From contig GG745359.1 of NCBI GenBank assembly GCA_000151295.1, forward strand, positions 104,617-168,616: a stretch of 64,000 nt of DNA, in the 5' to 3' direction. The notes under the pieces were generated by a model. That model did no database searches. It was not told the DNA's origin and saw nothing but the letters and a program-made list of their open reading frames with translations. Source of the stretch: Allomyces macrogynus ATCC 38327 (taxonomy: Eukaryota > Blastocladiomycota > Blastocladiomycetes > Blastocladiales > Blastocladiaceae). Positions 14,242 through 23,198 of this stretch are shown piece by piece. Numbering within the stretch: the first letter of the stretch is position 1; each line of letters begins with the position of its first letter. The position numbers were made by a program, and so were the translations under genes.

Positions 14242-17200
14242 CTAATTCCGGCGCGGCACCGGGGGCCGCGGCGCGACACTCGGCCGCGGGGTCACTGCCG
14301 GCCGCGGCGACGTCCCCGGGCGGGACACGTTCCCTGCGGGCGTGCCATTCGCCGACGCCTGTTTCTGCTTTTGCGCCTCCATGCGCGCGAGCAACTGCTT
14401 CTTCCACTCGGGCAAGTTGTCGCGATCGAGCGCCGACGACGTCGACGGAGTCGCTGATGCGGCCGCAGGTTGCGGACTCGCACGCGGTGCCGGTGCCGGC
14501 CGCGGCGGTGCGGGCGGCGGGACGGATGCGGCCTCGACGGGTACTTCTTCGAGGTAGTTGGACGGGACCCACCCTTCGTCGCCGGCGTTGGTCTTGGCGA
14601 GCCACCATCCGTTCTCTTCGCGCCGCAGGACATCGACGAAGTCGCCGGCCGAGACGGATAGTTCGCCGGCGTCCTGCCCGGCAAAGGGGAAGAGCACCTT
14701 GAACATGGGTTTCGCGGGCGTCGCGCGGCGCGCGGTCGGTGGCGGGGTCGGGCGCGAACGGGTCGGTGGTGGCGACACGGCGGCGACGGCTGCGGCGGCC
14801 GCGACTGCGACGGGGGCCGCGTACGAGGAAGATGTGGTCGCGACTGGGCGCGGGTTGGCCGCAGGCTTGTTGGTTTGCCGGGTCGCGACAACAGGTTTCT
14901 TGGTCTTAGCCTTGGCTGCGGTCGAGGCGCGCGGCTTCTTGCGGCATGGCGGCTTGGTCACTGGGTGGTGGTGATTGCAATGGAGAGTGAGTTGAGGGGG
15001 GCTCGGAAACGTCAGCATTGGATAAGAAACTGCGTACCGGACGACGCGGGCTGACCCGGTGCCGCGTGGATCTTGTCCTTCTTGAACTCCCACGCCACCT
15101 TGAGCGACGGGTCGAGCACGGCCTTGAACGTGTGCGATTTTTTGTCTTTCTTGTTGGTCATAATGAGCCTGGTGCAAGGAGGAACTAGAGGGTAAGCGAA
15201 AATCGCGACAGAAGCCATCACAACGTTTCCGAAACGCACTCGTTGGCAATCTTGACAGGCGTCTTGTTCTGGTAGACGAGGTAGGCGACAAGCTCCGTCT
15301 TGAACGGGCACGTAATCAACCAATCGTCGTCGCCATCCACATGCAGCAGCAAAAAATCGTCTTGGAACGCCGTCAGCGTCGCGGCCGTGATATCGCGCAG
15401 CTGTACCTTCTTCTCGATCCGCTGCACCGTCTGCTTGCCGTCGAGCTTGGTCACGACCAGCGTGAGGGTCTTGTCGGTCATCACGACCATGCGCGGCGAC
15501 AATTTAGCCGACCGCAGCAGCCGGAACACGACCGTCTGCGCGCGCGCCGAGAAGATAATCAGCTCATCCGACGACAAGTCGGCCGCGGTGCGCAAGAACG
15601 CGCCACCGCGACCGGCCACATCGAGGTAATCGCCGAGGTACCGGCGCATACTGATCAGACTGAACGCGCGCCGCTCCTTGCGCGCCTTGAGCACCTCGTG
15701 GCCATAATCGCGCATGCGCACGTAGACGTTGAGCCCCTTGTAGTCGCGCCACGCCTGCTGGATCGTGCGCGCCGCGGCCGCACGACGCTCCTGGTACTTG
15801 CGCCACGCGCGCTGGATGCGCAACGCCATCATGTGCCAGTAGCGGTCGCGCATCGCCTCGAGTTTGAAGAGCTAAACGTTTCGGATTGAAAGGGTGGTGA
15901 GCTCAGTTGCAAGAAACCACTCGAACCAACGGAATAACAAAAAAGGTACCGTCTCGGGACTCTTGATGAACACCTTGGTCTGCCCAAGCTGCCACTGGTC
16001 GCGCGGGATCCCCGTGGCCTCGAGAATGATGCGGCACCCGTCGCGCGTATTGCCCGCCCACGTGCACTCGCCGGCAAAACACGTCTTGCTCGACAGCAAG
16101 TAGAACCGCTCGAGGAACCGCTCGTACTTTTGCCGCGACGCGAAACCCGCGCGACGCACCTTGACGTTTTCGAGCAACCCGAGGTACTTGACTTGGTGCA
16201 TGCACATGGCGTCATTGTACTCCTTGGCCGACTTGTTGGCGTTGGGCTTGAGACAACGAATGTAGTTCGGGTGGCAGCCCATGAGCGTCGTCACCAAATC
16301 GGCCGCTGACAGCTTGATCTTGTCGGACGCGGTCGGCGGGCGCTGCCGGTTCTCGCGGTCCACGTCCTCCGGGAACAGCGACTGCAACAGCGCCATGTCC
16401 GACGACTTGATGGCCTCGAGCAGGTCCTTGTTCGCCTGGTCGCGGTTCTTCTCGGACATGCCCGCCGCCTGGTAGGTCACGTCGCCCGCATAGTGCTCGA
16501 TGGTAAACGTGCCCATGTGCGCGCGGAACCGCGGGTGCGAGAGTCGGCCCAGGTCCGAGGCTAGGTTCTGGTCGGCCTTTTCCGGGTCGGCATGCACGCG
16601 CGCGCCGGCGTCGTTCATGATGGCGAAGATACCGGGCGGGCGCTGAAAAGTGAGGGGAGATGCAACGCGTCAGGTCGATCTCGGTTGTGTGACTGCCGAA
16701 CTGAAGAAACAACGTACCCTTTCCTCGATGAGCTCGCAAACGACCTTGTTGTTGAAGAACTTGATGGGCGTCTGTTCAACGAACAATCGCACGTCAGCTG
16801 GGTGGTCGAAAGGGTGCCCGTATATAACGAGCCGTGATGGCAACGGACCCACTGGATGCCTTCGGCGACATAGTCCTCCTGCTCGGCCTTGAGCGTCAGC
16901 TCGATGAAGATCTGCTGCAGCTTCTCGTTGACGTAGTTGCTATAAACGAAGAAAGGGCATCAGTTCACGCATCCCGGCATCTGACCCATGAACCCGATCA
17001 AAACGTACATGCACAGCTGCTCAAAGCTGTTGTGCTCAAAAATCTCAAACCCGTAGATATCGAGCACGCCAATCGACCGCGTTGCCTTGACCGCCGGTCG
17101 CATCGCCTGGTTGACGCGCACGACAATCCAATCAAACAAGCGGTGGTAGAGCAGCTTGGCGAGGGCGTCGCGCACACCCAGCGCCTGCGCGACATTCAGT

Positions 17201-18745
17201 GGCGAATCAAACCGCTCCATGCCGTTGCCGCGCGGCGTGACAATGACGCGCTGCGTGATCGCACGCTCGAGCGTGGCCTCGTCCATGCTGAGCAAGTAGG
17301 CCGCCGACGCGAGGGCGTCGCGCTGCGTGACGACCGCGTCCTCGCCATTCTCGGCCTCGGCAAAGGTCACGTTGCCGAGCCACAGGATCCCGGCCAGGAG
17401 ACGGTGAATGTCCGACTGCTCGTCGGCCGACAGGCCAATCACACGCATCGCCTCGATCACCTCGGCGTACTCTTGCACATCGTCGATGCCGTCCACGTCC
17501 ATGCACCGCGCCTGGCTCGTGTAGTAGAAGCTCTCGGGGCCGGCGATACCGAAATCTGTCGGATTGGTCGAATTTGAGTCAGGTGTTTGGTGGATCATCG
17601 CCACAGTCGACAAGAGAAAGACGCACCAGGGTACATGGTCCCAGCAGCCTTGCACAGCTGGTAGAAGATGTGGAACCCGCGCTCGTTTTCGACCTGGTTC
17701 ACGACGCGGCTCTTTTCGAGGAGGTAGTTGGTGATGTTGGCGCCAACTGGCTCGCCGTGGTCGTTGAAGAAGATCTCGAGGTACTTGCCCTGTTCAAGAA
17801 GACGGATTACACATCAGCTCCAACGCGAACCTTACTTCCAAACTGCGAATCGACAGAGGAAGAAAACGCACAAATCGACTCGAGTTGTTGTTGCGCAGCG
17901 TCTTGGCGTTCCCGAAACTCTCGAGCAACGGGTTGGTAGCGAGCACCATTTCCTTGACGTGCTGGATCGACTGGTTACTGTTGCCCGAGACGGCGGCCAC
18001 GTACTGCATGATCTTCTTGGCGGCCTCGGTCTTGCCCGCACCCGACTCGCCCGAGATGATGATGCACTGGTTGTCGCCGTAGCTCTTCATGCGGTAGTAG
18101 GCCGACTCGGCAATCGCAAAGACGTGCGGCGGCATTTCAATCAGGTTGCGGCCGACATACGACTGGAGAATGCTGTCTGTGTAGATGCCGAGGTCCTTGA
18201 ACGGGTTCACGGAGATCAGGACGTGCCCGATGTACGTCTGTTGCCGCGTCAGGTTGTTGTTTAGTTGGTGCGCAATCTTCTCCACCGGATGCAATCCGTC
18301 TCCACCGCACCCAAGGCGGATGGTGGCGTTCCGACCGATCGATCACGTACGTAGATCTCGCCCTTGTGGAAGCGCTTCGACAGGTTATCGTTGATCGACT
18401 CGTTGGACAGCGTCGAGAGCAGCGTCATGTCTATATGAATCGTGCGCGCGACGCGCCGGGAAATCAGTATCCGGTTCGACACCGTCCTCCTCCGTCTCCA
18501 AGAGCAATCGCTAGCACACCATCGACGCCGACTTGGTTGGGCTTGCGGTCGCTGTTCCAGGCAGCCTTTTTCCAGGCAGCCTGGGGCTTGGCGACCTCGC
18601 CGCCGCCCTGGCGCTTGCCAAGTTGAATCTATCGCGTCGAGTGCCGTTGCCGAGTGCATATCAGTCGACACTGGTCGCGATCGGGCTGCCGCGTGTGGCC
18701 GCGACGGCGTCTGATCGCGCCCGAGCGCCGGCAGGGACGGACCGG
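14242..18745 (-). CDS. class I myosin with TH1 and SH3 tail
   Basis: About nine to eleven exons from about 18745 or 18610 down to the stop at 14242. The motor is complete: [12 protein letters not shown] start, [15 protein letters not shown]-loop [31 protein letters not shown] switch region, [21 protein letters not shown] relay, and [10 protein letters not shown] actin site. The TEDS position (five before the Pro of the SPLN motif) is Glu, so the motor should not need phosphorylation. One or two IQ motifs ([26 protein letters not shown]) follow, then a TH1 lipid-binding domain, an Ala/Pro-rich linker, and an SH3 (ALYDF-like KVLFPFAG...WWLAKTN...[10 protein letters not shown]). The protein ends in VPRRN without the acidic Arp2/3-binding tail of yeast Myo3/5. 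It acts in endocytic actin patches in other fungi. The first exon is uncertain: an ATG at about 18745 would splice to an exon at about 18627. Confidence 0.88.
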
Positions 18746-19579
18746 CATGGTGACGGCAGCACTGAGAGCGGGCTGATCGCGTCAAACGGGTAACGAGCTG
18801 CAAACGGCAACGATAGCTCGACCGAATGCGCGCCGAGAACGAACGAGATTGAGAAACTAGAGCGCGATTGGCGGGGATTGGTGCGTGACGACTTGAGCTT
18901 GAGCCGGCGACAGTTGTTCGGGCACACAATCCAAAGCCGGAATCGGTCCTCGATGGCCCTGAAAGTCTTCGCGATATTACGTGGGGGCCGCGGGGACGTG
19001 ACCGAACAGCGACGAGCGAGGGTCAGCGTCGGTCTCCAGTCTCTTGCAGCGTGTTGCGCCTTGTTGCTAGGGGGGCTGCGGCGGCCGCCGGTGCGCAGTT
19101 TCTTGACGCTGGGGGCCGCAAAGGTTGACTGCGATTGACTGCAGCAACTCGCCGTCGTGAGCGTCGCGGTTGGTCGGCGCGGTTGGGTCGCGGCCAGCAG
19201 CAGCAGCACGTCGCGCGCGGTGGAGGTGAAGGAGCGGCGCACGCGGCGCGCCGGCTGGCGACTTGGTTCCAGTCACGAAAGTGGGGCGAAAGAGGCGAAA
19301 GCAGCATGTGGCGCGGCAATCTGCAGCAGTCACGCTTCGGGAGACACTCCTCGCATTCCACTGTCTCCCCGCGCTTTGCTCGTCGACAACCACGCCTACA
19401 GTCCACAACGTGTTGCTGTCGCAGACGTCGCAACTGCAGCGCCAGTCGGACAATCCGAACCCGGCGCACGAGTAACCGCCACAACCCGCTGCAAACTGGA
19501 AGCCGCGCGCTCCTGGATCAAGTAGCGACCAGCAGGACCCAATCGTCAACCGCAAGCCCGCCCACCCGCTTCATTCACC
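18746..19579. promoter_or_regulatory. divergent promoter region (myosin / GPATCH11-like)
   Basis: About 830 bases lie between a minus-strand and a plus-strand start. ORFs in this stretch overlap each other on both strands and have no recognisable domains. It probably contains both promoters and 5' UTRs. Confidence 0.4.
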
Positions 19580-20744
19580 ATGGCCAGCGACTCGGACGAC
19601 GACTACATGTCGGCGGCGTTCCTCGCCGAGCCCGCGGCCCCGCCAGCCCAAGACCTCGCAATTGACCTACTCGGAGCGCCGCAAGCTCAAGGCGCGCGAG
19701 GCCGCGGCCAAGCAGGCGCCGCCACGCGAACAGCTCAAGGAATCGCGCGATCAGGGCCTCAAGCGCAAGCTCGACGAGTCGAACAAGGGCATGCAGCTGT
19801 TGAAGAAAGTGGGGTTCAAGGACGGCAAGGGTCTCGGCAAGGACGCGGCGGGCATGGCCGAACCGCTCGCTGTGTCGGTGCACGCGGGTGTGTACTTTGC
19901 GCGTCATGGATTCGATTGCGACGGCTCGGCAACTGACCGGATGCTCAGGCAGGACCGGGATCGGCGTCAAGACCGCCGAGGACCTGGCCGTCGAGCAGGA
20001 GGCCAAGCGCGTGAAGCGATTGCAGGAAGCGCAGGGCAGTTTTCGCGATTGGGGTTCGACGCGATTCCAAGAGAAGATGTACGCGTTACTTTGCTCGTGA
20101 CCATACTTGCCTTGATCATCCATCCAGGTTAATCAATTTTCCACTTCGTCCCTAGGCTCGATTCGGACATCAAGAAGTGCCGCAAGATTTGCCACGAGCT
20201 CAACTCAAAACAGGCACTTTCACTTGGATCGCCAACAATCGACTCTCAGATAACTGACGATGATTCTCCACCGAGTAGGAGCTACAGACGCACACGCACT
20301 TGTGGCCACTCAGCGTCTAGCCGTTGCCCGAAACACCCGTCTCGCTCCCGCTCCTGGATCCCGATGCCGACACGGGCGATACCGAGCCAATCGTCGCTCC
20401 GCTCGAAACCATTGTGGACGACGACGAGGATCCCGGACCCGTTGAGCTGGCGCGGCCCGAACCAAACGATCCAACTGCCAACGACGGACCAATTCCAAGG
20501 ACAGCTGAAGCCATCACATTCGAGGGGTTAAGCGTGTACATTTCTGCTTTTTCAGTCGAAATCGCGTCCGTCTGTGCGATTGCTGACGAGAACCTCGCCC
20601 GTCGTGTAACTGGACATGCAGCTCGGGACGCTGACCGAGTACCTGCGCGCGACGCACCGTTACTGCATTTATTGCGGGTGCCAATACGATGCGCAGGACG
20701 AAATGGACGAGTCGTGCCCTGGAGCTACCCGAGACGACCATTGA
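19580..20744 (+). CDS. GPATCH11-like G-patch protein (two apparent frameshifts)
   Basis: The start DSDDDYMSAAFL matches the acidic opening of GPATCH11/CCDC75. TYSERRKLKAREAAAKQ follows, then the G-patch (NKGMQLLKKVGFKDGKGLGK...HAGRTGIGVKTAEDL), a helical part ending STRFQEKM, and the C-terminal Zn-like YLRATHRYCIYCGCQYDAQDEMDESCPGA ending at 20744. Introns lie at about 19879-19949, 20078-20156 and 20535-20560. Two one-base shifts break the frame: between about 19625 and 19661, and at GTAAC near 20608, where removing one A restores the family sequence. G-patch proteins activate DEAH helicases in splicing or ribosome assembly; the partner here is unknown. The gene could be a recent pseudogene, but sequencing error is more likely. 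Confidence 0.75.
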
Positions 20745-21010
20745 AACGGCGGGGCTGTCGTGATTTGATACTTTTGGCCGGAAAACATGCTATTCATTGT
20801 TGAGCGTCACCGTTCTATCCACGCGCTCAAAGCGCAAACGAAGCAGATCCGTCCATCTTTCTGTTTGCAAGGACCCATCCAAGGGTACACTAATTCGCTA
20901 GTCAGAAAAAGAGTGTCGACCTTTCACGCCGCCACCATCCGAAACGGCGGATTCAAGTCCCCACCCAACGCCATCGCGTCCGAGCCAGTTAGCCAGTTGG
21001 CCGCGCTCTG
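20745..21010. other. convergent 3' intergenic region
   Basis: About 265 bases between the convergent GPATCH11-like and opsin-cyclase genes. It contains 3' UTRs and nothing else I can identify. Confidence 0.4.
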
Positions 21011-23198
21011 TCACGTCTTGCGACCGAGTACCCTATTAGCGCGCAACCCACCGTGCGTCAGTTGAGATGTCCTCCAACCGGCACGTAATTTGACCTCCAA
21101 CACGGACCAGTATGTCTGCATCTTGCCCTTGCCCTTGACCTCCATGACGTCGAGCGGCTGCGTGACAAACCGGTCTTTGATCTTCTTGTAGGTGTCCTCG
21201 GAAATGTGAATGTGGCCGGCCTTGGACGTAGACTCCCTGACGACAACAGCGCGACAAGTGAGTTGAAACGCTTCGCGCCAGACGAGCGCATCGAAGCAGG
21301 TCAAAAGCGCACATTCGAGAGGCCGTGTTGACCGTGTCGCCCACAAGGCACCAGTGCGGGTTCAAGTCGCCAAGCACGCCAGCCGTGACGGGCCCACTGT
21401 GCAACCCAATCCGGATATTGATCGACTCGCCCGTCGCCGACTTGAACGACTTGATCATGTCGATAATGTCGAGAGCAAAATTAACGGCGCGTTCGGCGTG
21501 GTCGGGCACGCGGTCCGGCGCACCGGCCACACCCAAGTAGGCGCTATAGGGGGTCGAGAGAATCAGCTGCTGTTACAATCACACACGAGAAGGGAAAAGA
21601 TAACATACTCGCCAATCGTCTCCACCTTGTAGATCCCCCACTTTTTCGCAATCGCATCGTACTCGAGCCACAGCATGTTAAGCGTCTTCATCATGTCCTT
21701 GGTCGACGTGCGCGACGAAATCACCGTGAAGTTGGTGATATCCGAGAAGAAGACGGTCACCGACTCGTATTCCTGCGCCTCGGTCGCTTCGCCGTTCTTG
21801 ATTTGCTCGAGCACACTATCGCAAGACACTCAATCGTCAGTCGCTGGTCACTCGCTTCCCGTGGGCATAGCACATCAAATGCGCACGTTGCAGGCATCAT
21901 CTTCTCCAAAATTGCGTCGCAGTTGTTGACCTGCGTCTCAAGCTCCTCAGCAATCGCCGTGATCGCTTCCACCTTTTGGTTCTGCGCATGCTCGACGGTC
22001 GAATTGACGAGTACCAGCGTCAATAACACCTTGGCGCCGATATCGAGCACGGCGAGTGCTGCCTCGGCCGCGGTAAACGAGACGAGTTCCGCATGGAACG
22101 CGAGTGCCGAGACGGGGACGAGCGTCCAGGACACGAACGTTGAGACGCGCAGCCACTTGAGCGCTGACGTTTCGACCGTCGAGACGGTCGTCCCGTCAAT
22201 CGCGCACGTAAAGCACATGACGAGGTGCGTCACGACATAGCCGATCCCGGCGCACGACAGAACACTGCACAGGTTACCGAGCGGGAACGGCGGGAGGACA
22301 GCACCCATGAACGCGGCGATCGTGACGAGGTAATTCACGGTAATCACCGCGGTCGGGCGATGCGGCGATTGCGTGATAGCGGCGATCACCTGGATCAGGA
22401 CGGGACCCGTCGCGAGCCGCTCGAGGTACCGCGCCGGCTCGACGGCGTTGCTCTGGCTGCCCTCGATCGTTGGCGAGAGCCGCAAAAGGACGAGCACGTA
22501 TGTCGCGAGCGCCATGACGTTGACGCCAAACAGGGCGAGTGCCATGGCCTTCTTTTCCGTGGATTTCGCGCCGAAGAAACCCATGCCGGAAAATGCGACA
22601 CCAATGGCGAGGCCAAACGCGCCGTACCCGTACCACACGTCGGCCCACCCGCGGTTGTAGGCCTGCCGGTCGTGCGCAGTCACCGTGTACCACGAGAGCG
22701 CGGCCGTTGCCGCGATCCAGAGCAGGCCATGCACAGCCAGACATTTAAGCGCCGGTACGGTCCATAACATGCTCCACGACCACGCGGCATCGAACGACGC
22801 GTGACCCGCCTGGAAGGCCGCGAGCGAGGTATGCGCCGTGGGGCTCCCGCTCGCGCTTTTGCCGGAATCGACCGACGAGGTGGATTTCGAGCGCGAACCT
22901 TATTATCGTAATAACGACGCGTTTACCGAATCGTGAGTAGCGTGAAATTGCCATCGAACCCATCGAATTCGGGCTGATCCGTACTCGACTTGACAGGCGA
23001 CACCGACGGCACCAGGCCCGACCCGGACCCTTTGCGCGACATGCGGCGGTTCGAGACGCTGGCATCGACAATTGAGTGCTTGGTGACGGCGCAGCGGCAG
23101 TCGTCGCACTGCGGCGTGCCATTGGCGGCGGGCAAGTACTCGGCGCACGTCTTGCAGCCCGTGCAGGCACCGCGCATCTGGTTATCCTTGTCGCGCAT
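21011..23198 (-). CDS. microbial rhodopsin-guanylyl cyclase fusion (RhGC/CyclOp)
   Basis: Five exons, 23198-22927, 22855-21887, 21815-21609, 21543-21313 and 21236-21011, give 634 aa. The cytosolic N-terminus starts MRDKDNQMRGACTGCKTC and carries a Cys cluster. Then come eight membrane segments (one extra plus helices A-G). Helix C is RYLERLATGP (233-242), and helix G holds the retinal Schiff-base lysine in LDIGAK (K366). A coiled-coil linker ends LEKMMPATVLEQIKNGE. The class III cyclase has both metal aspartates (D439, D483), the guanine-specificity pair E479 and C548, and NTASRM with the catalytic Asn and Arg. It should make cGMP, with light control by the opsin. Against the Blastocladiella protein the spacing is constant (offset 18), but W to R at 237 and C to G at 241 are unusual. 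The exon 1/exon 2 splice is the least certain. Confidence 0.93.

Follow-up and report, generated by a model that had tools for sequence, protein, structure and literature searches.

The genome of Allomyces macrogynus ATCC 38327 encodes a rhodopsin–guanylyl cyclase (RGC) whose opsin keeps the hallmark Schiff-base lysine and carboxylate counterions (K361, E231 and D357) but has lost most of the conserved retinal cage: of W86, W182 and the aromatic residues at positions 185 and 189 (bacteriorhodopsin (BR) numbering), W182 alone remains. The pocket is thus changed with its charged triad kept, the cyclase is intact and a canonical potential partner gene lies in the same genome. On balance, these features lead us to favour a partner subunit that is insensitive to light or weakly pigmented, the opsin of which would have left ordinary light sensing while its cyclase was retained. 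A rebuilt pocket had been noticed in the original prediction from the sequence of the window; that observation is confirmed and is larger than first noted, as W189, D115 and G122 are also replaced, by Ala336, Asn260 and Ala267.

Gene architecture and paralogues

The window is the whole stretch of 64,000 nucleotides that was analysed (C44:104617-168616), and coordinates count from its first letter. We searched the 54.0-Mb assembly (75 contigs) and found opsin matches at three places: the window gene on C44, its further copy on C52, and a paralogue on C63. In its predicted splicing, the window gene joins an N-terminal type I opsin to a class III guanylyl cyclase, the RGC or CyclOp architecture, with a reading frame that is open throughout and has no frameshift. 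Its domain order runs from a Cys-rich N terminus starting MRDKDNQMRGAC through a predicted extra helix, the seven-helix opsin and a helical linker to the cyclase:

21011..23198, minus strand, whole RGC gene, five-exon model, 629 amino acids
23198-22985, 22898-21887, 21815-21609, 21543-21313 and 21236-21011, minus strand, exons 1 to 5 (splicing from the model)
22675..22749, minus strand, putative N-terminal helix TM0, ahead of the seven-helix opsin, from alignment with C63 and the published CyclOp architecture (PMC4569695)
22000..22647, minus strand, type I opsin domain, seven helices
22372..22437, minus strand, helix C, RYLERLATGPVLIQ
21815..22002, minus strand, helical (coiled-coil) linker from opsin to cyclase, split by an intron (21886-21816) and near-identical in C52
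21107..21781, minus strand, class III guanylyl cyclase domain with D434, E474, D478 and C543 (PF00211, 189.8 bits)

The borders of exons 3–5 are backed by agreement with C63 and with the PDB chains 6sir and 6ao9, and the choice of start codon by the N terminus of C63, MKDKDNNLRGAC. The exon 1/2 junction (GT...AAG) is tentative, which explains a constant offset of +5 in the ten residue numbers of the original prediction relative to those of our model. Within exon 1, the Cys-rich motif RGACTGCKTCAEY...CDDCRC (23198-22985, minus strand) is conserved in part in C63 and is possibly metal-binding.

The opsin was detected by PF01036 in a six-frame profile search (56 bits) but was missed by hmmscan alone, as PF01036 was absent from its report on the window protein. 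AlphaFold predicts a microbial rhodopsin fold when given 28 prokaryotic rhodopsins, an input chosen from 80 prokaryotic loci that may bias the model towards this fold; the single sequence alone gave an uninformative model (mean pLDDT 44.7). The best-matching solved opsin fold is that of the Rh-PDE of Salpingoeca (7cj3 and 7d7q). The TM0 region is modelled as a helix at a pLDDT of only about 40–50.

C63 is the canonical paralogue, with the motifs RYLEWMGTCP and WTMFPVVW and 52% identity to the window protein over the opsin. C52 is 80.5% identical to the window over 4.1 kb (window 18160-22232) and covers the gene from helix F to the end of the cyclase; the sequence upstream of this is a run of N at least 3,971 bases long. 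That run takes in helix C of the C52 copy, and the Arg and Gly of helix C described below therefore rest on one sequence. As assembled, C52 also has a TGA stop in the E–F loop, with about 35 bases between it and the run, which is either a real stop or an edge error. A published ‘rhodopsin-less’ Allomyces duplicate may be C52 seen through the assembly gap, given that helices F and G adjoin the run. A search for a fourth RGC copy led to C55, which matches the block downstream of C63, with no RGC match in its readable part and then a run of N. Such runs thus occur at or near two RGC copy places, C52:691500-699500 (L016, at least 3,971 bases) and C55:82000-91999 (L130, at least 6,452 bases). In viral contigs, 22 stretches matched the search pattern and none encoded a relative.

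The window gene adjoins a myosin-head gene (17794-18342 and 15875-16669), and the C52 copy is likewise followed by a myosin fragment. On the other side of the window gene lies a divergent DUF4464 gene (plus strand, 23963 to about 24734), the first part of which scores 83.9 bits with PF14713; the two starts are 765 bases apart. We take PF14713/DUF4464 to be the flagellar protein CFAP300; it is possible that this gene and the RGC share a zoospore-stage promoter.

Loss of the retinal cage

To place the changes, the window opsin was aligned with BR, Rh-PDE, C63 and 99 distinct prokaryotic rhodopsins. These derive from 106 loci, 103 of which have a matching open frame (identical proteins merged); the other three (L122–L124) have none and all lie below the Pfam cut-off. 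Because 80 of the 99 were seeded by six BR peptides, one including W86 and one including Y185 and W189, the sample is biased; the remaining 19 came from profile searches without a peptide seed. The residues concerned are:

22420..22422, minus strand, E231, counterion position (BR D85)
22417..22419, minus strand, R232, codon CGG, BR W86 position
22405..22407, minus strand, G236, codon GGT, BR T90 and RGC C259 position
22333..22335, minus strand, N260, BR D115 position
22312..22314, minus strand, A267, BR G122 position
22117..22119, minus strand, V332, BR Y185 position
22105..22107, minus strand, A336, BR W189 position
22042..22044, minus strand, D357, second counterion (BR D212)
22030..22032, minus strand, K361, retinal Schiff-base Lys (BR K216), Lys in C52 too

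The two motifs first read from the sequence, RYLERLATGP in helix C (22431-22402) and LDIGAK in helix G (22047-22030), are both found in exon 2 on the minus strand, and the spacing of 126 and 130 residues from the first counterion to the second and to the lysine holds for E231, D357 and K361 (originally E236, D362 and K366). The interval originally given for the feature, 22035-22070, takes in part of helix G with D357 and just misses K361, and the helix C codons exist but lie slightly below the proposed 22425-22440 (CGG at 22419-22417, GGT at 22407-22405). The Arg at the W86 position, the Gly at the gating-Cys position and the Val at the Y185 position (residues 237, 241 and 337 in the original numbering) are likewise present, as R232, G236 and V332. 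The number C259, originally ascribed to Blastocladiella, is given in the literature for the Catenaria protein (PMC8575461).

Two of the altered positions, W86 and G122, are invariant in the prokaryotic set. At W86, Trp is present in 99/99 prokaryotic rhodopsins (19/19 of those unseeded), in C63 and in Rh-PDE, and the window protein has Arg; at G122, Gly is equally constant (99/99, C63 and Rh-PDE) and the window has Ala. The Y185 position is Tyr in all 97 rhodopsins with a residue there (19/19 unseeded) and Phe in C63 and Rh-PDE, as against Val in both the window protein and C52. At W189, Trp (92 of 97) or Tyr (5) gives way to Ala, again in both the window protein and C52, with Trp in C63 and Glu in Rh-PDE. 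In bacteriorhodopsin and channelrhodopsin, a hydrogen bond between helices C and D pairs residue 90 with residue 115, and both members are altered: position 90 (Thr 94 and Val 5 of 99; Cys in C63 and Rh-PDE) is Gly, and position 115 is Asn, where C63, Rh-PDE and 89 of the 99 have Asp and only 2 of the 99 share the Asn. The window opsin retains R82, Y83, the Glu at 85, T89, P91, S141, W182, P186, D212 and K216.

Not all of these positions are strictly required, as Rh-PDE carries Glu at W189 and two of the 99 rhodopsins carry Asn at D115. Nor need such pocket losses unfold the protein, because structures have been solved, by their titles, for BR T90A/D115A and for H. walsbyi BR W94F; we place W94 of the latter at the BR W86 position. 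W86, W182 and Y185 are described as perfectly conserved in ion pumps (PMC4585134).

Among BR positions conserved in at least 85% of the 99, both paralogues keep 17 and have changed 27, and gaps cover 2; five are lost in the window protein only (86, 115, 122, 150 and 189) and three in C63 only (53, 174 and 211), which is no significant difference (p 0.73). As judged from this alignment, the notable point about the five is which positions they are, rather than how many. Over the whole opsin, with Rh-PDE as the outgroup, unique changes number 27 in the window copy versus 11 in C63 (binomial p 0.014).

An intact cyclase

The original prediction that the cyclase half is untouched is borne out. The complete cyclase set is present, with the metal-binding Asp residues D434 and D478 and, for the GTP base, the Glu/Cys pair E474 and C543 (originally D439, D483, E479 and C548), and the domain is identical at 171 of 179 positions to C63, at 161 to 6ao9, a chain we take to be from Blastocladiella, and at 159 to 6sir (Catenaria). 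The C44, C52 and C63 cyclases share 11 residues that differ from the residue common to 6sir and 6ao9, and 3 more where those two chains differ from each other. This split, although unrooted and compatible with a root on the C63 branch, points to a duplication within the Allomyces lineage, separate from that of NeoR. Whereas the opsin changed more in the window copy, in the cyclase it is canonical-pocket C63 that has 6 private changes, against 1 in the window protein.

Comparison with other rhodopsin enzymes

With BeGC1 (Blastocladiella) and CaRGC (Catenaria), the window protein shares the domain order, the Schiff-base Lys, the counterions and the closely similar cyclase. The published architecture also has the extra helix TM0, preceded by a cytosolic N terminus, and such a helix is predicted here. 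It differs from such homodimeric RGCs, by comparison of the opsin through C63 and Rh-PDE, at the W86, C259, D115, G122, F/Y185 and W189 positions, and ordinary light gating is expected from the sequence to be lost. Rh-PDE is likewise an enzyme fusion without Trp at W189 but keeps W86, Cys90, D115, G122 and Phe185, and carries a different enzyme.

NeoR of Rhizoclosmatium globosum is another RGC paralogue with an altered pocket and an aliphatic residue at Y185, which works with a canonical partner, as we propose for the window protein. The resemblance, raised in the original prediction, holds for the Y185 position and the heterodimer idea and goes no further, as the NeoR counterion cluster is absent. 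NeoR has a Glu/Asp/Glu triad at BR 85/89/212, Thr at P186 and Ile237 at Y185 (PMC8815786); the window protein has Glu/Thr/Asp, keeps the Pro and matches only through its Val, and is further set apart by the Arg at W86. Membership of the NeoR group is rejected on the missing triad and the retained P186.

The strongest alternative to a partner subunit, which we nevertheless consider unlikely, is that the opsin binds retinal in a reshaped pocket and acts as a spectrally shifted or bistable photosensor, NeoR-like and separately evolved. K361, E231, D357, W182 and P186 are all kept, as this would lead one to expect, and the published account of NeoR treats Ile237 as the sole exception to a rule of Phe or Tyr at this position in all other microbial rhodopsins (PMC8815786), to which the window protein and C52, with Val, would be further exceptions. 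Against it, the positions of NeoR D140 and E262 are Thr and Asp here, Pro stands in place of the NeoR Thr, and the NeoR pocket is called surprisingly similar to those of other rhodopsins (PMC8815786), whereas W86, G122 and W189 are also changed in the window protein. Two of three A. macrogynus CyclOps were moreover without a light response at 532 nm (PMC4569695). For the spectral shift suggested originally, the remaining Lys, Glu and Asp leave room, and nothing was found here in support.

Constraint on the altered opsin

Divergence is given as NG86 values, since YN00 could not be used for 11 of the 15 rows; the larger dS values are near saturation. Between the window gene and C52, 91 of 94 residues of helices F–G and the linker are identical (dN 0.019, dS 0.377), as are all 188 of the cyclase (dS 0.369, with an NG86 dN still of 0.002). 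Three replacements in 94 opsin-plus-linker residues and none in 188 of the cyclase at a dS of about 0.37 imply that both copies have the altered helix F and that it is under constraint, neither an error nor in decay, with the caveat that the test covers helices F–G and the linker and that much of this constraint may stem from the linker. Between the window gene and C63, exon 2 (N-terminal tail, opsin and linker) has a dN of 0.42 at a dS of about 1.0, compared with 0.03 and 0.65 for the cyclase. Gene conversion of the cyclase is not needed to account for this, as the C44–C63 dS is alike in exon 2 (1.01) and exon 4 (1.03); in exon 3, all pairs have a low dS (0.15, 0.38 and 0.31).

These values bear on a second alternative, in which the opsin half is decaying after duplication under relaxed constraint, perhaps tied to absent phototaxis, and the cyclase alone is selected. 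Exon 2 has indeed moved far from C63 (173/333 identical), phototaxis is reported as absent in A. macrogynus zoospores (PMC9616733) and C52 as assembled has its E–F loop stop beside the N run; yet the helix F–G and linker replacements are few for their dS, the window gene is open throughout and the Lys, Glu and Asp persist. We regard decay as improbable, and the pattern of asymmetric opsin change after duplication, followed by constraint, would fit a change of role better.

The emptied pocket might also have become the site of a different ligand (a sterol, a lipid or another carotenoid product), making the protein a chemoreceptor-like membrane guanylyl cyclase. Two aromatic walls are now small residues, an Arg lies beside the Schiff-base region and constraint is seen where testable, but the retained Lys, Glu and Asp suggest that the Schiff-base site still matters, and the ligand is hypothetical; we consider this very improbable. 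An assembly or base error in the window is the least credible account, for although the helix C Arg and Gly are each one base from TGG and TGT, six pocket positions differ from C63, the change from Trp to Ala takes three base changes (TGG to GCA), the Gly and Asn codons each lie two bases away from the Cys and Asp codons of C63, C44 has no frameshift, and the independent recurrence of the helix F Val and Ala in C52 makes chance or base error unlikely.

A proposed partner subunit

AmCyclOp1–3, the published RGC copies of a blastocladian genome that has undergone duplication, are very probably the gene set found here, and the window gene is probably one of them. Expressed alone in oocytes, AmCyclOp1 was weakly light-activated (light/dark ratio (L/D) 93, dark activity 0.04), AmCyclOp2 was without activity and AmCyclOp3 was constitutive (0.7 in dark and light) (PMC4569695). 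AmCyclOp1 with AmCyclOp2 gave 0.008 ± 0.007 in the dark and 3.2 in the light (L/D 400), the 0.04 for AmCyclOp1 alone having been obtained with twice the AmCyclOp1 cRNA of this mixture; AmCyclOp1 with AmCyclOp3 had a dark activity raised to 0.09 and an L/D lowered to 37, and in AmCyclOp2 with AmCyclOp3 light was without effect (L/D 1) (PMC4569695). Gao et al. termed heterodimers merely possible (PMC4569695). A light-insensitive or partner-only protein, as first suggested, fits the sequence, and fits the oocyte data if the window gene matches AmCyclOp2 or AmCyclOp3, a gene-to-name mapping that we assume. The direction of any partner effect depends on that mapping, because AmCyclOp3 raised dark activity and the AmCyclOp1 and AmCyclOp2 mixture had a lower one. 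A word search of the main texts of Avelar 2014 and Gao 2015 returned no description of the pocket changes. The heterodimer duplication is reportedly placed in the Chytridiales by a 2023 survey of rhodopsin-cyclase diversity, which may already treat the Allomyces proteins.

In the partner-subunit reading, the opsin half of a duplicated RGC would have been withdrawn from ordinary light sensing and its cyclase half retained. The opsin would bind retinal poorly or without gating the enzyme, and the protein would pair through its cyclase and linker with a canonical RGC of the C63 type, supplying half of each catalytic site and altering the dark activity as well as the gain with which the canonical subunit responds to light. 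Carotenoid oxygenase (PF03055) matches at three places (C43:209894-211639, C74:96388-98009 and C45:169552-171319, the last with internal stops in the six-frame reading) are possible retinal-synthesis genes, judged by their domain. In NeoR/RGC1, only one of two nucleotide sites is described as catalytic (PMC12264004). The retained Lys, Glu and Asp could form a salt bridge that holds helices C and G, or could serve a slow or unusual chromophore; that all three persist counts against a wholly blind opsin, which would not need them. The more specific proposal, a maintained light-blind regulatory subunit in a Blastocladiomycota heterodimer that evolved separately from NeoR, with one pocket dismantled and then preserved by selection, is one we put forward tentatively.

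If true, this would provide a natural opsin with its Lys and counterions but without most of the aromatic cage, in which the function of the cage could be asked directly, and a genome with both a canonical and an altered copy supplies a natural pair for swaps. It could explain why, in the 2015 study, two of the three A. macrogynus CyclOps did not respond to light when expressed alone, and would point to more than one origin of asymmetric rhodopsin-cyclases.
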